35,814 nucleotides of DNA, taken from contig CALUSW010000010.1 in assembly GCA_944323535.1 (NCBI GenBank), positions 1-35,814 on the forward strand, in the 5' to 3' direction. Below the pieces are notes generated by a model that saw nothing but the letters and a program-made list of their open reading frames with translations, searched no databases and was not told the origin of the DNA. Origin of the DNA: Candidatus Gastranaerophilales bacterium (lineage in GTDB: Bacteria > Cyanobacteriota > Vampirovibrionia > Gastranaerophilales > Gastranaerophilaceae). Position numbers and translations under genes: made by a program. Shown piece after piece: positions 27,976 through 35,456 of the stretch. Numbering within the stretch: position 1 is the first letter of the stretch; the number at the start of each line of letters is the position of its first letter.

Positions 27976-27999
27976 AAATCTAAACCTCTTTATATTGAC

Positions 28000-28028
28000 A
28001 TTATATACAAAATAATGAAAATTATAAA
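28000..28028 (-). promoter_or_regulatory. Candidate clpP promoter
   Basis: On the minus strand TTTATA (28028-28023), a 17-base spacer and a perfect TATAAT (28005-28000). This leaves a leader of about 18 bases before the clpP ATG. Confidence 0.5.
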
Positions 28029-28054: not shown

Positions 28055-28591
28055 ATGATAGTAGATTTTGATTTAATTGCATACGATTTTATGACGGATT
28101 TTAACGGTCCCGAAAGGCACTATCCTAATCCGTTTTATCCTGCCGGTGTTTATGAAGAAGATAAACCAAAATATAAATTCGGGCCTGATTCAACAGAATA
28201 TCCCAATTTAACTCTTCCCTGCAAATTATATGATGAATGGGGAAATGCTATAGATAACGGGTATTACATGGTTGTACTCTCAAATGATATGAAATATCTT
28301 GAACTGTATCAAAGCAATACATTAAAAGCACGAATAAAAGTTATCAAGCTTGTAGAAAAAATGTACACGGATGAAGAACTCAGCGAAGAAGATGCAATAA
28401 TTGCAAGAATGCAGGAGGCAAAATTAAAGAAAAAATTAAAAAAATACCGTGAAGCGGAAGAAGATTTAATCGCCTTCAAAGAACGTTCCGCCGCAAATAC
28501 ATATGCAGAAATAGAAGATTCCGGAAAAGGATATTATATTCTGAAATATAATTGCAACGGAAAAAAAGCTACCGGTATTATAATGAAGTAA
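28055..28591 (+). CDS. Hypothetical protein, charged
   Basis: 178 residues, family not recognised. The first two thirds look globular (FNGPERHYPNPFYPAG, then NGYYMVVLSNDMKYLELYQS, which has a beta character). A strongly charged helix follows (about 105-150; EEDAIIARMQEAKLKKKLKK) and the end again looks beta (GKGYYILKYNCNGKKATG). There is no signal peptide or membrane span. The ribosome site is weak. The next gene, the FlhA-domain protein, starts 60 bases on in the same direction, so a shared job is possible but unproven. Confidence 0.8.
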   Translation: MIVDFDLIAYDFMTDFNGPERHYPNPFYPAGVYEEDKPKYKFGPDSTEYPNLTLPCKLYDEWGNAIDNGYYMVVLSNDMKYLELYQSNTLKARIKVIKLVEKMYTDEELSEEDAIIARMQEAKLKKKLKKYREAEEDLIAFKERSAANTYAEIEDSGKGYYILKYNCNGKKATGIIMK

Positions 28592-28650: not shown

Positions 28651-30108
28651 ATGTATAAACCGACAAGAAATATATATACAATAAGAACTTCGCCTTATAA
28701 TGACAATGAAAAGCTTGAAAACCTGCTTAATGAAATGTCAAAAGACGGATGGGACATATATTCAATGCAGGAAATTGAAAATGATGACGGAATCTTCTAT
28801 AACTGCATCTTTATCAAAGAAATTGAAAATGATGATAATTCAATAAATGATAATTTGTTGAATTTCAAATCTCGTATTGAAAGAATTATTAATCCTGAAC
28901 TTGATCCTTACGAATTATGTATTGATATTCAAAAAAAGATTAAAGAAAAAAGACAAAAAATAGCACAGGTTAAATCCCTGATTGATGAAACCTCCGAAGA
29001 TTCAAGAACTATTTTAAATGAAGAAATTTCAAAATATATTAATGAACTTGAAGAATTAAAGAAAAATCTGGCAAAAGTTATTAATCCGGATATAATGGAA
29101 CAAAAATTGGGAGAACAAAAGCTTACACTTTCTTTATCTGAAGAATTAATGGAAATTCTGGATAATAATAATGAGTTTAATATGCTTTCCCAGATTGTTT
29201 TTATAAGACAAAAATTAACTGAAAACTTAGGTTATATAATACCGAAAATTAATATTGAAATAGATGATTCACTGGAAGAAAATGCTTTTGCAATAAAAGT
29301 AAGAGGTATTCCGGTTTTAACCTCTCATGCTTATTGCAATCATATAATGTTCTTTAAGAATGAACTTAATATTGAAAAAATGCCGTCAGGTACTTTTGAA
29401 GATATTGATATTATAACAGGGTTTAATATTTTATGGATAAATGAAGACAAAGCAAAAGATTTCTGGGTAAAAGGTCTTGATACAACAGACTTTATTGCAA
29501 GATTGATTGAAAATACCATTATAAAATATATTGATGATATTTTTGACTATTCAGATATCAACCGTTATATTGAAATTGTCGGTAATCAAAATTTGTATCT
29601 TATAGAAAATATTATCCCTGATTATATTTCTGTAGCAGAGTTAAAATATATTCTTGCAAATTTAATAAAAGAAAAAGTTTCTATTAAAGATATAGTTTAT
29701 ATTTTTGAAAAAATAAATGATTTTGCCGATGAAACAAATAAAGAAGAACTTCTTGAGAGAATAAGAATTTCTCTTGCAAGACAAATTAGCGCATCTGTAT
29801 ATGATGAGAACAATAAAGCAATACAGGCATATGAACTTTCTGAAGAAAGCACTAAGTTATTTTTAAATACAAATCCCGATGATGAAATAATAAGAATAGA
29901 AAGTAATAAAATAGAAAAAATAATATATTCTTTAAAAGAAAAAACAGAAAAATACACCCCCGAATGTAAGGAAATAATTCTGATTGCCCCTATGAAAATA
30001 AGGCACCTTATATATTTAGTTTTATCAAAAATTATGCCTAATCTAAGAGTTGTTGCAAGAGAAGAATTATTATTCGAATATCCTCTTCAAATAATAAGTA
30101 CAATATAA
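28651..30108 (+). CDS. Soluble FlhA/SctV C-terminal domain protein with DUF4177-like N-terminus
   Basis: 485 residues in three parts. Residues 1-57 look like the small DUF4177 fold (LLNEMSKDGWDIYSMQEI...FIKE). Residues about 72-150 form a charged coiled coil. Residues about 155-485 follow the cytoplasmic domain of FlhA/SctV export-gate proteins: LSLSEELMEIL, SQIVFIRQKLTENLGYIIPK, NAFAIKVRGIPV, WINEDKAKDFW, a long helical region with LANLIKEKVSIKDIVYIFE and RIRISLARQIS, and the end FEYPLQIISTI. The eight-helix membrane half is absent; none lies upstream. The ATG has AAAAGGA before it. Its function without a membrane export gate is unknown. Confidence 0.85.
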   Translation: MYKPTRNIYTIRTSPYNDNEKLENLLNEMSKDGWDIYSMQEIENDDGIFYNCIFIKEIENDDNSINDNLLNFKSRIERIINPELDPYELCIDIQKKIKEKRQKIAQVKSLIDETSEDSRTILNEEISKYINELEELKKNLAKVINPDIMEQKLGEQKLTLSLSEELMEILDNNNEFNMLSQIVFIRQKLTENLGYIIPKINIEIDDSLEENAFAIKVRGIPVLTSHAYCNHIMFFKNELNIEKMPSGTFEDIDIITGFNILWINEDKAKDFWVKGLDTTDFIARLIENTIIKYIDDIFDYSDINRYIEIVGNQNLYLIENIIPDYISVAELKYILANLIKEKVSIKDIVYIFEKINDFADETNKEELLERIRISLARQISASVYDENNKAIQAYELSEESTKLFLNTNPDDEIIRIESNKIEKIIYSLKEKTEKYTPECKEIILIAPMKIRHLIYLVLSKIMPNLRVVAREELLFEYPLQIISTI

Positions 30109-30114
30109 AAAGTT

Positions 30115-30139
30115 AAAGGGACCTTTTTAAGGTCCCTTT
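30115..30139. terminator. Intrinsic terminator after the FlhA-domain gene
   Basis: An 11-bp perfect stem AAAGGGACCTT (30115-30125) with its complement at 30129-30139 and a TTT loop, followed by T-rich sequence. It starts 7 bases after the stop and faces the minus-strand gene ending at 30160, for which the A-rich side also works. Confidence 0.9.
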
Positions 30140-30159: not shown

Positions 30160-31068
30160 CTATTTTTTATCCTGTATGCTTTCTGCCTTATCATTCTTTT
30201 TATTAAAAAATTTAGAGCTGATTTTATTAGCAATAGGTGTAATAACAACAGGACCTAAAAATCTGTATATAATACCCAGAATTATAATAACTTTGAGTTT
30301 ATTAATACCCGGCAGTAATTTATCGGCTTCACCCCGTGCCGCAGAAGCATTATAAACATCATCAACCAGACCTTTTACTGCCTCTTTAGCTTTTTCCGCG
30401 TTGCCGGCATTTTTAGTAATTGACTCCTTAACTGCAGACTGAACTGAAGATAATTTATCACCCGTAATTTGGAAAGCTTTTAATTTACCTTCTTCACCTA
30501 CAATATTTTTCAGCTGCGAACCCATTTTAGAAGCTACCTGTTCAAGACCTTCCGTAAATTCACTGCCTTTTTTACCTGCAACTTCGGCAACCTTGCCGAG
30601 TAAATCATCTTTTCCAGCAGCTGCGGCTTTTTCACCAAGTTTTACATAAAAATCTTTATGTCCGTTAAAGTATTTTTCAGCCCCTTTCATAACTGCATTT
30701 GTAATTTTATCTTCTACAAGATATGCTCCCGCCGCCGATACTCCAAGAGTTAAGGTATCATTTATAAGCATTTGCGGTTTTTGTTCTTTTTCTATTTTTT
30801 TATTACGCAAGGTATTTATCATATAAAAACCGGATAACAAAACACTTTCCGCAACCATCAAATGAGTAAATGTATTATTTGACCTGCTGAACCCTTTAAC
30901 AAATTTTTGGAAAGGATTTGTTTTGGCAACACCTGTGTAAAATTTAGAAAGTCCGTCTACAACAGGTTGAGGTACTGCGCCTTTAAAAGAAGGGGTTGTT
31001 TTATTATTAGAATTATTATTCTTTTTAGGAATATTATTTAATGTATAATCAACTTTATTTATTTTCAT
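30160..31068 (-). CDS. SFKG-motif membrane-associated hypothetical protein
   Basis: 302 residues, no known family. The N-terminus is MKINKVDYTLNN followed by an Asn/Lys-rich linker and TTPSFKGAVPQP (25-36). Hydrophobic segments occur at about 70-85 (MVAESVLLSGFYMI), 103-118 (LTLGVSAAGAYLV) and near the end (VIIILGIIYRFLGPVVI), with Ala/Lys/Gly-rich helices between. The tail is charged. The frame extends to 31110, but the ATG at 31068 gives the same MKIN start as the upstream gene and follows GGGGG by about 9 bases. It overlaps that gene by 14 bases. The two look like distant paralogues. Confidence 0.8.
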   Translation of the reverse strand: MKINKVDYTLNNIPKKNNNSNNKTTPSFKGAVPQPVVDGLSKFYTGVAKTNPFQKFVKGFSRSNNTFTHLMVAESVLLSGFYMINTLRNKKIEKEQKPQMLINDTLTLGVSAAGAYLVEDKITNAVMKGAEKYFNGHKDFYVKLGEKAAAAGKDDLLGKVAEVAGKKGSEFTEGLEQVASKMGSQLKNIVGEEGKLKAFQITGDKLSSVQSAVKESITKNAGNAEKAKEAVKGLVDDVYNASAARGEADKLLPGINKLKVIIILGIIYRFLGPVVITPIANKISSKFFNKKNDKAESIQDKK

Positions 31069-32020
31069 AATTTGATACCCCCGCAAAAGATTGAAATAAT
31101 TCCTTCTCACTGCTGTTTTGGAAAACGTTATAATTCATTATATCCATCGGTGTAGGTGTCTGCTCTTTTGGTTTTGAATCCGGTTTCTTTTTCCCTAAAA
31201 GTCCCAGAAGAATCGGCACCATAGCTATTGTAATCGTTGCTCTTAAAGGCATAAACACCGGCTGGAATAGTTTATCTATAACATTTTTACCGGTCTTGGC
31301 ATAATTATTCATCATTTGTTGTTCCGTTAATGCTTTTTTGACTTTATCGGATATTTCAGGTGCTTTCTCTGATATTGTATCCGTAAATGCGCGTTTGGCG
31401 CCTTTTCCTGCTTTACTGAATACGGAAAGATTAATTTTACCGCCGTCTGTTAAACCTTTTATTTGTTCAACAAGACCGGTTTCTCTTCCTTCTGCTGTTA
31501 ATTTTTTAGCCAGACCCGATAAAGCGTCAACACCCTCTTTTACAACGGCTAAAGATTTTTCTTTCATTTCCGGCGGCATATTAAAAGCACCTTTTTGATT
31601 TGCTTTTTTTGCAGCTGCAGCAACCGGCATACCTATTAAAGCTGTAGTTCCTAATCCAACAAGTCCCGAAGATACAGACTTAGCTGCCTGATAAGAACAT
31701 TTTTCTTTATCTTCTTCATTTTTTGCCGTTGCCATAATAGTTAACGGTCTTAAACCGCAAGTAATTAAAATGGCAAATAAAGCTTCCGCTACAAGGGGAT
31801 TTTCCGAAGCAAAATTTGCGGCTCTATGAAGGAAAGGAACTCCCCCCTTAAAACTCACACGACCATCAGAATTCATCTTGATGGTCGTGTTTATTTGGTC
31901 ATTATTATTTTGTTTTACATTATGTCGCTCGTATGCTCTCGGTTTTCCTCCGGACATTTGGCGCTCTATGCCCCTGTCCTTAAAATATCCCGTATTTGCC
32001 GTGATAGAATTAATTTTCAT
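31055..32020 (-). CDS. SFKG-motif membrane-associated hypothetical protein
   Basis: 321 residues, family unknown. It begins MKINSITANTGYF, then a polar Asn-rich stretch and GRVSFKGGVPFLHRA (53-67). Hydrophobic stretches lie at about 76-90 (VAEALFAILITCGL), 116-140 (SSGLVGLGTTALIGMPVAAA) and 260-280 (TITIAMVPILLGLLG). The C-terminus is Pro/Lys-rich then polar. Layout and motif match the following gene, with which it overlaps by 14 bases. GGAAAGAG precedes the ATG. Its coding sequence includes a perfect 12-bp inverted repeat just before the SFKG codons. Confidence 0.8.
   Translation of the reverse strand: MKINSITANTGYFKDRGIERQMSGGKPRAYERHNVKQNNNDQINTTIKMNSDGRVSFKGGVPFLHRAANFASENPLVAEALFAILITCGLRPLTIMATAKNEEDKEKCSYQAAKSVSSGLVGLGTTALIGMPVAAAAKKANQKGAFNMPPEMKEKSLAVVKEGVDALSGLAKKLTAEGRETGLVEQIKGLTDGGKINLSVFSKAGKGAKRAFTDTISEKAPEISDKVKKALTEQQMMNNYAKTGKNVIDKLFQPVFMPLRATITIAMVPILLGLLGKKKPDSKPKEQTPTPMDIMNYNVFQNSSEKELFQSFAGVSNYENK
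31857..31890. repeat. Perfect 12-bp inverted repeat inside a coding region
   Basis: ACACGACCATCA (31857-31868) pairs with TGATGGTCGTGT (31879-31890) around a 10-base loop. It covers codons just before the SFKG motif of the 31.1-kb gene. It should form a stable mRNA hairpin about 130 bases into the gene. Confidence 0.85.
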
Positions 32021-33773: not shown

Positions 33774-35456
33774 ATGAAAATTCAAGCTGCTTATAAATAC
33801 AAAGATATAAATACGTTAAAATCTCCGGCTTGTTATCCTTCATTTAAAGCTGCAACCGTAAATATAAATACTTTATCGGATACACACGGAGAATTGCTGC
33901 TTGCAAACAATGCACTTGAAGAAATGAGAAGCAGACAGCAGGATATTTTTTGTAAAGAGGGAAAGGGAAATGCAAACATATTTGCAATTTGCGGCGATTG
34001 GTTTATGGACGAAAAAAGAAAAGGATATTCCGCAAATCCCGATTTAGAAAACGGATATTTTCAACTTGCAATGCTGAATGAATTTTTAAAACAAATTAAA
34101 AATATTTCTAAAAACACTATTGCTTTATTTACTCCCGGAAATCATGAATTTGACGGAGGTGTAAGCCTGCTTGATGATATATTGTCAAAACTCAATGCCG
34201 AAGTATTAATATCAAATCTTGATACTGAGCATTCTCCGGGGTTTGAAAAAAGCATAAGCAGCAATAAAATAATAAATCAAAAGATAATTGAAATTGATGA
34301 TGACAAAAACCCCAATTTAAAACACCGGATGCTTTTTTTGGGCATATGCCCCGTAAATATGCAGGCTTATCAAAAAAATCTTGACGGAGTTAAACTATCG
34401 GATAATATCAACAAATCACAAAAATTTGTTAACAGGGAAGATTATGAAAAAACTCTTGATATATGTAAATCTAAAATAAAAAACTTTAAAGAAAAAAATC
34501 CTAACGGTATAGTTGTATTTTTATCCCATACAGGTGTTAATTTTGCAGATAATCTTGCAAGAGAATCCGATGTTGACATAATTTTTGACGGACACGAGCA
34601 TAAAGACAATATAAGAATTGTAAACAGCACCCCGATAATTCCTCTTTCTCAAAATTTTAAAAAAATAGCAAATGCCAAAATTCAAATTGATGATAACGGA
34701 GAAGTAAAACAAATTGAGCTTAAATCATTTTCCCCATTATCAAATAAAACAAAAGGAACACTTTTAAGGTTCTACTGTAAACTATTCAAAACAGACATAA
34801 GAAAAAAATATAAAATAAAAGCTTCCGACCCTGAAATAAAGACTCTTGATACAAACGGAATAAGACAGGGGAATAATTATCTTGCAAATTTTATAACGGA
34901 CGCAATTTTAACAGAATTAAAAAAACAGGATCCCGAAATAAAAATATTTGCATTAAATGCATCTGCAATAAGAAGATCTTTAAAAATTTCCGATAAAGTT
35001 TCGGTTTCCAAATTTGATGTTATGAATGTCCTCTCCGGCATAAAAGAAGATGACGGACAAATTATGACAACGGATGTGACGGGAAAAGAACTTGCATATA
35101 TAGTTTTAGATAATTTATTGTTTAATAATGAAAATCCCGAAAAAAATCCTATTATCCATTACTCCGGATTAATAATAAATAAAACCAAAATTTTAGAAAA
35201 ATATTCAGAGATTAATGACTTTTCCGATTTGACAGAATATATAATTGATACAGATACAAAAGAGCCTATAAAGCCTGATAAAACATACCGAATTGCAAAT
35301 GTTGAAAAATATTTTAATAAAAGTGCAAATTCTATAATAAGAAATTCAAAAAATAAATCCCTCTATATTGGCAAAAGCGTACAAGAGTTATTCAAACAGT
35401 ATTTTGAAAATAATAAAGATAATTTATATGCAAATTGTGATATGCGTATAATATAA
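33774..35456 (+). CDS. 5'-nucleotidase/UshA-like metallophosphatase
   Basis: 560 residues in two domains. The N-terminal calcineurin-type phosphoesterase has all metal motifs: SDTHGE (Asp36, His38), ICGDWF (Asp75), TPGNHEFDGG (Asn123, His124), FLSHTG (His252) and DGHEH (His274, His276). The C-terminal half matches the 5'-nucleotidase C domain (GNYLANFITDAIL, NASAIRRSLK). Family members are usually exported, but no signal peptide is present. Instead the protein starts MKIQAAYKYK and has CYPSFKAATVN at 20-30, like the two proteins at 30-32 kb. No ribosome site is seen near the ATG. A nucleotide or nucleotide-sugar substrate is likely. Confidence 0.88.
   Translation: MKIQAAYKYKDINTLKSPACYPSFKAATVNINTLSDTHGELLLANNALEEMRSRQQDIFCKEGKGNANIFAICGDWFMDEKRKGYSANPDLENGYFQLAMLNEFLKQIKNISKNTIALFTPGNHEFDGGVSLLDDILSKLNAEVLISNLDTEHSPGFEKSISSNKIINQKIIEIDDDKNPNLKHRMLFLGICPVNMQAYQKNLDGVKLSDNINKSQKFVNREDYEKTLDICKSKIKNFKEKNPNGIVVFLSHTGVNFADNLARESDVDIIFDGHEHKDNIRIVNSTPIIPLSQNFKKIANAKIQIDDNGEVKQIELKSFSPLSNKTKGTLLRFYCKLFKTDIRKKYKIKASDPEIKTLDTNGIRQGNNYLANFITDAILTELKKQDPEIKIFALNASAIRRSLKISDKVSVSKFDVMNVLSGIKEDDGQIMTTDVTGKELAYIVLDNLLFNNENPEKNPIIHYSGLIINKTKILEKYSEINDFSDLTEYIIDTDTKEPIKPDKTYRIANVEKYFNKSANSIIRNSKNKSLYIGKSVQELFKQYFENNKDNLYANCDMRII

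Follow-up and report, generated by a model that had tools for sequence, protein, structure and literature searches.

The 485-aa protein encoded at 28651..30108 on the forward strand of the window, by which we mean the whole 35,814-nucleotide stretch of Candidatus Gastranaerophilales DNA analysed here, has the fold and the ancestry of the cytoplasmic domain of the export-gate protein FlhA (FlhA_C), yet it is without the defining features of an export-gate protein. Every flagellum and injectisome has FlhA as its motor-like ring, and the protein is known as a single chain anchored in the membrane; its cytoplasmic domain normally makes the docking ring beneath a flagellar or type III export gate. 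In the reading that we prefer, and to which we give a probability of about 0.45, the stand-alone protein would be a soluble accessory paralogue of FlhA2, a second full-length FlhA of these bacteria; it would dock to the FlhA2 gate and serve a rod-only export apparatus. That the protein binds FlhA2, and in which direction it acts, we infer from the evidence below.

The protein and its predicted fold

The ORF starts with ATG, encodes 485 aa and has 0 internal stops (window coordinates are on the forward strand unless stated otherwise). Residues 136-473 matched the Pfam FHIPEP profile (E=5.4e-49; 167.7 bits against a curated cut-off of 29.1), and the match was confined to positions 321-652 of the 657 in the profile, with positions 1-320 missing, so the membrane half is missing from the protein. 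No membrane segment was found in it, the maximum 19-residue Kyte-Doolittle mean being 1.41, and the protein is, as judged from its sequence, soluble. The NCBIfam models of FlhA and SctV both reached the last residue, with 149.7 and 89.2 bits, below their equivalog cut-offs of 772.1 and 692.25, respectively. In the AlphaFold2 model (48 sequences, pLDDT 81.5), a beta-alpha-beta-beta module (residues 5-59) and a disordered stretch (60-74) were followed by two long helices (86-112 and 116-143), and the FlhA_C fold started at about residue 150. Foldseek recovered the D1-D4 fold of FlhA_C with an E of 1.6e-22 to 6ch2, and VIA-align gave Z scores of 30.2 to CdsV, 29.5 to H. pylori FlhA and 29.2 to MxiA. 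By Pfam, mapping on Salmonella FlhA, Foldseek and VIA-align, the FlhA/SctV cytoplasmic domain D1-D4 was placed at residues 158-485 (29122..30105).

An earlier note, made from the DNA letters and a list of ORFs, had proposed an FlhA_C fold detached from its membrane half, and the FHIPEP match, the model and the Z scores of about 30 all agree with it; structure prediction and fold search against FlhA_C/SctV_C returned a match, not the mismatch that was to speak against the proposal. With FlhA (PF00771; PDB 3a5i, 6ch1, 3myd, 7amy) the protein has the four-domain cytoplasmic fold in common (Z 28-30), but a DUF4177-like and coiled-coil N-terminus stands in place of the eight-helix membrane half. 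The SctV proteins of injectisomes (CdsV, MxiA, YscV) have the same cytoplasmic fold, as the Z scores to CdsV and MxiA indicate, but the sequence match to them was weaker (89 bits vs 150 for FlhA) and the 485-aa protein is again without the membrane half.

The N-terminal module (residues 1-59; 28651..28827), delimited by profile searches and AlphaFold2, has L26, N27, M29, W34, Y37, E41, I53 and F54 as invariant residues. Its match to DUF4177 (PF13783) was weak in the 485-aa protein (E=0.069; 13.8 bits against a curated Pfam cut-off of 25 bits) but recurrent, with E<=0.1 in 14 of 26 orthologues, in which the 'LLNEMSxEGWELYxL' stretch fits the profile; the best E was 3.2e-4. No match to the module was found among solved structures, and none in other proteins of 11 genomes. 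AlphaFold2 placed coiled-coil helices, conserved among orthologues, at residues 86-143 (28906..29079). The DUF4177-like piece and the coiled coil described in the earlier note are thereby borne out by the model, the profile match to DUF4177 being weak.

Distribution and descent

Gastranaerophilales is an order of gut and environmental bacteria, and the N-module profile found exactly one copy in 192 of its 193 sampled genomes and none in 96 genomes from the class's other orders. Across Gastranaerophilales, proteins carrying this N-module recurred at a length of 480-510 aa. No full-length match was found outside the order in the phylum sample, whose other genomes gave E values no better than 1e-82, on a par with ordinary FlhA. 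The sole sampled genome of the order without the N-module gene, G260 (98% complete, 1.5 Mb), is a reduced genome of the same family as the window that has kept FlhA2 and FlhB, and therefore FlhA2 is not strictly dependent on the gene. Pairwise dN/dS for the entire gene was 0.016-0.094, with low values in each of its three parts as well, and on these values the family is under purifying selection.

An ORF that FHIPEP matches over its C-terminal half only could in principle be a piece of a longer FlhA split by assembly, or a decaying pseudogene, a reading to which we give next to no credence. The gene has its own start, a constant length of 480-510 aa and an N-module conserved across the order, with one copy per genome in 192 of the 193; its dN/dS is 0.02-0.09, and an intact FlhA is encoded separately in the same genome. 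An assembly break is excluded because dozens of genomes carry relatives of equal length, and conservation, length and dN/dS rule out break and pseudogene alike. The FHIPEP search found the full-length FlhA elsewhere in the genome, so the fragment of a broken FlhA, which the earlier note had named as its own possible undoing, did not materialise.

Within the order, the canonical FlhA1 (~870 bits) was found in the other families and in one sampled genome, G227, of the window's own family; some further orders of the class have it too. FlhA2 (~710 bits) occurred throughout the order, and most of the remaining families of the class have it as well. Blastp of the 485-aa protein gave E ~1e-47 to FlhA2 vs ~1e-18 to FlhA1. 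In the tree, the 485-aa family formed one clade (100/100) on the FlhA2 side, which joined the main FlhA2 clade at 98/95, or at 99/93 when the long two-helix (2TM) rows were left out. A topology with all FlhA2 as one clade was not rejected (p-AU 0.24), so the exact branching depth within FlhA2 is provisional; the grouping of two-helix FlhA_C proteins with the 485-aa family is unsafe and carries a long-branch warning. As the tree and the searches place it, the family has a single origin on the FlhA2 side. An origin from the canonical flagellar FlhA1 was considered and is ruled out by tree and blast. Within one genus the 485-aa protein shows ~75% identity vs ~92% for FlhA2, and it evolves faster.

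Gene neighbourhood and the FlhA2 apparatus

The window's own genome (G000) has three FHIPEP matches: a 700-aa FlhA on contig C8, the 485-aa protein, and a 418-aa two-helix FlhA_C on contig C72. The first is full-length FlhA2 (~700 aa; L033:8018-10120), and it lies in a rod-only, flagellar-derived operon (L033:6665-17002) together with genes for two FlgF/G-like proteins, FlgB/FlgC-like rod proteins, a lytic transglycosylase (SLT), FliE, FliF, a FliG-like protein, FliH and FliI. The same genome encodes one full FlhB and gave no match to flagellin; two flagellated relatives, G039 and G040, have flagellins and two FlhB. By its gene content, the FlhA2 operon is a rod-only export apparatus of flagellar derivation, without a filament. 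FlhA2 was present in the sampled order genomes that carry the 485-aa type gene, and also in other orders without this gene; in no genome looked at did the gene lie inside the FlhA2 operon.

A 178-aa gene (28055..28591), identified by its ORF and by the gene-neighbour survey, ends 59 bases upstream of the 485-aa gene, and the two are probably co-transcribed. A promoter-like site before both genes (27995..28022; consensus match only) and a terminator-like stem of 11 pairs that begins 7 bases past the stop codon (30115..30139) agree with a two-gene unit at this locus. At most loci of the window's genus, and also at L120, L126 and L170, the 178-aa gene adjoined the 485-aa type gene; elsewhere the upstream gene encoded a PSP1-domain protein, a ribosomal protein L20-like protein or others, and neighbours varied among genera. 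The partnership suggested in the earlier note therefore holds as a candidate for the window's genus and a small number of sister genera and does not extend to the other genera and families, in which the survey found no upstream copy and hence no constant adjacency. Neither Pfam nor NCBIfam gave the 178-aa protein a family at a usable score. Its model had pLDDT 70, with residues 1-43 disordered, and the best VIA Z was 7.5 on a helical hairpin only, so no fold is assigned. The neighbours of the 485-aa type gene were mostly housekeeping genes (ClpP, PSP1-domain, infC/rplT-like), and no injectisome genes were seen beside the 485-aa gene. In genus g7, the gene lies 147 bp upstream of fliJ-fliK-flgD-flgE; this neighbourhood belongs to the flagellar gene set and is that of one genus, being missing from G048, which represents a second genus of that family.

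Other detached FlhA_C modules were seen in the same clade. Two-helix FlhA_C proteins are encoded at L035, L065 and L066, and the one at L035:7106-8362 is the third FHIPEP protein of the window's genome (418 aa, contig C72), which has two membrane helices in addition to FlhA_C and sits on a long branch. Short FlhA_C paralogues (L069:3972-4979, L070:4606-5403, L071:4851-5501 and L072:8680-9357) have the linker, D1 and D3 and are without D2 and D4, and that at L072 lies tail to tail with a full-length window-type gene. In G135, a 593-aa protein (L210:1462-3243, contig C9) has a FliG-like N-domain, a membrane segment and a D2-less FlhA_C, and the N-domain resembles the FliG-like protein of the FlhA2 operon (E=1e-9). 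In G087, from another order of the class, a 289-aa FlhA_C piece (L224:6998-7867, contig C2) lies directly downstream of FlhA2. Through the G087 adjacency and the G135 fusion, detached FlhA_C modules are linked to the FlhA2 apparatus.

Separately, an N-terminal tag, 'MKI...' and then [PV]SF[KS][GA], was common to otherwise unlike proteins. The tag-bearing ORFs are at 30160-31110 and 31055-32020 (both reverse strand) and 33774-35456 (forward strand) of the window, at L034:715-4677 (reverse strand) and at L130:3667-4374. Among 1012 ORFs, 14 of the 17 SFKG motifs were within the first 80 residues, some of them in mutual orthologues, and this SFKG-type tag could be an export tag.

Conserved surfaces and possible roles

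Residues were mapped on Salmonella FlhA and compared in 26 orthologues, 26 FlhA1 and 22 FlhA2, with residue roles taken from PMC8166844, PMC9431611 and PMC8213127. In FlhA/SctV, a hydrophobic linker residue anchors to the neighbouring subunit and stabilises the nonamer (PMC8213127), and in Salmonella cooperative FlhA_C ring formation needs the linker (PMC8166844). Residues 144-157 (29080..29121) align as the counterpart of this linker, FlhA_L, and M149 aligns with the ring-stabilising Trp354 of Salmonella. In the sequence alignment the anchor position was Met in 24 orthologues and Phe in 2, and Met in 22/22 FlhA2; the linker Pro (P146) was present in 26/26 orthologues vs 22/22 FlhA2. The D3 motif KVSIKD (residues 342-347; 29674..29691) is common to FlhA1, FlhA2 and the 485-aa family, and the equivalents of W465 and R391 are conserved in the family. 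At the GYXLI hinge site, which aligns with SEELM here (29137..29151), the G368 equivalent was Ser in 26/26 orthologues and Gly in FlhA1 (26/26) and FlhA2 (22/22). The chaperone dimple of FlhA consists of D456, F459 and T490 (PMC8166844), and its loop (Salmonella D456-G460) aligns with DIITG (29407..29421): the Asp456 equivalent was kept in 25/26 orthologues, Phe459 was replaced throughout (T15 S6 N2 L2 K1; Thr in the 485-aa protein), and the Thr490 equivalent was variable, mostly S/K/R/E/A. Mean identity of the family to FlhA2, with domain limits that we take to be the usual ones, was 34-38% in D1a and D3 and 19-21% in D2 and D4.

By these alignments, the ring-building surfaces are the better kept, and the features of the hinge and of cargo docking have been lost. 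The likeness to FlhA includes the linker counterpart, KVSIKD and the W465 and R391 equivalents, but not the GYXLI glycine, F459 and T490. FlhA2 of the same genomes is the closest relative by blastp and tree and has the linker motif NPxxM and F352 of D3 in common with the family, but it is a 700-aa membrane protein encoded in an operon with FliF, FliG-like, FliH and FliI, whereas the 485-aa protein is soluble, has its gene at another place in the genome and has diverged in D2 and D4. The 'docking platform' of the earlier note finds no support in its known form at residue level, since dimple and hinge residues are replaced family-wide.

In the mechanism that we prefer, the cytoplasmic domain of FlhA2 would have been copied, the membrane half lost and the DUF4177-like module and coiled coil gained, in a single event no later than the origin of the order. 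The product may dock to, or insert among, the FlhA2 cytoplasmic ring via its conserved linker, D1 and D3 surfaces, and the N-module and altered D2/D4 faces may recruit another partner, or serve to block or control the entry of substrates. Counted in support are the tree, blastp, the P..M linker motif, the D1a/D3 identity, the co-presence with FlhA2, the sibling detached modules, the fliJ context in g7 and dN/dS of 0.02-0.09; counted against are the position outside the FlhA2 operon, the varying neighbours, G260, the occurrence of FlhA2 elsewhere without the gene and the restriction of the g7 context to one genus. A negative regulator or decoy, which would cap the FlhA2 ring or sequester FliI, FliJ or substrates and keep the gate shut until needed, is a special case of the accessory role, with which its confidence overlaps, and we consider it quite improbable. 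In Salmonella, the G368C exchange keeps FlhA_C locked in its closed state at 42 degrees, and export ceases (PMC9431611); the Ser that has replaced the hinge glycine in 26/26 orthologues may act likewise, and the dimple loss predicts no forward docking of chaperones. The residue is Ser and not Cys, however, within a motif that differs throughout, which makes the closed state an analogy; near-universal retention suits an activator equally.

A self-sufficient cytosolic nonamer or carrier, topped by the coiled coils and N-modules and collecting substrates that do not use the known dimple, seems unlikely to us. The FlhA_C fold is complete, D1 and D3 are best kept, the nonamer-stabilising linker anchor (PMC8213127) has its counterpart in M149, and the N-module and coil might aid oligomerisation in place of the membrane part. 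Set against this, the F459/T490 dimple and the GYXLI hinge are lost in all or nearly all orthologues, and ring formation in Salmonella needs the linker (PMC8166844), whose anchor here is Met and not Trp or Phe. Somewhat less unlikely is an exaptation, in which the old FlhA_C fold is reused in housekeeping or regulation (e.g. translation, cell-envelope) and has no export role. The lack of linkage to the FlhA2 operon, the mostly housekeeping neighbours, the faster evolution than FlhA2 and the lost hinge and dock residues all suit it, but the gene always occurs with FlhA2 in the sampled order genomes, FlhA2-like sequence is preferentially kept in D1/D3 and the linker motif, and the sibling detached modules have ties to the FlhA2 apparatus. 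More broadly, the protein may be an order-wide soluble FlhA_C subunit added to the type III export apparatus, in mixed or stacked rings with FlhA2 or in a free ring, through D1, D3 and the linker; this is doubtful but conceivable. If true, it would be a new kind of export-gate component and part of a wider set of detached FlhA_C proteins (two-helix-anchored, FliG-like-fused and D2-less minis).

In open-licence papers, searched for detached FlhA_C, for FlhA paralogues of Melainabacteria/Vampirovibrionia and for FlhX, we found no report of a detached FlhA_C or of the 485-aa protein, and no text on FlhX. Some flagellated bacteria encode FlhX, a small protein that stands alone, is homologous to the cytoplasmic domain of FlhB and is without an extra N-terminal module. 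It is alike in concept, as an export-gate cytoplasmic domain encoded alone beside the full-length protein, but it is derived from FlhB and not from FlhA. A near-universal, single-copy soluble FlhA_C across an order, beside a rod-only apparatus and in bacteria that have no flagellin, would show the ring domain acting apart from its membrane engine. The 485-aa family is a natural test of ring-building surfaces, which are kept, against cargo-receiving surfaces, which are lost, and it directs attention to a non-flagellar export system, as yet uncharacterised, of common gut bacteria.
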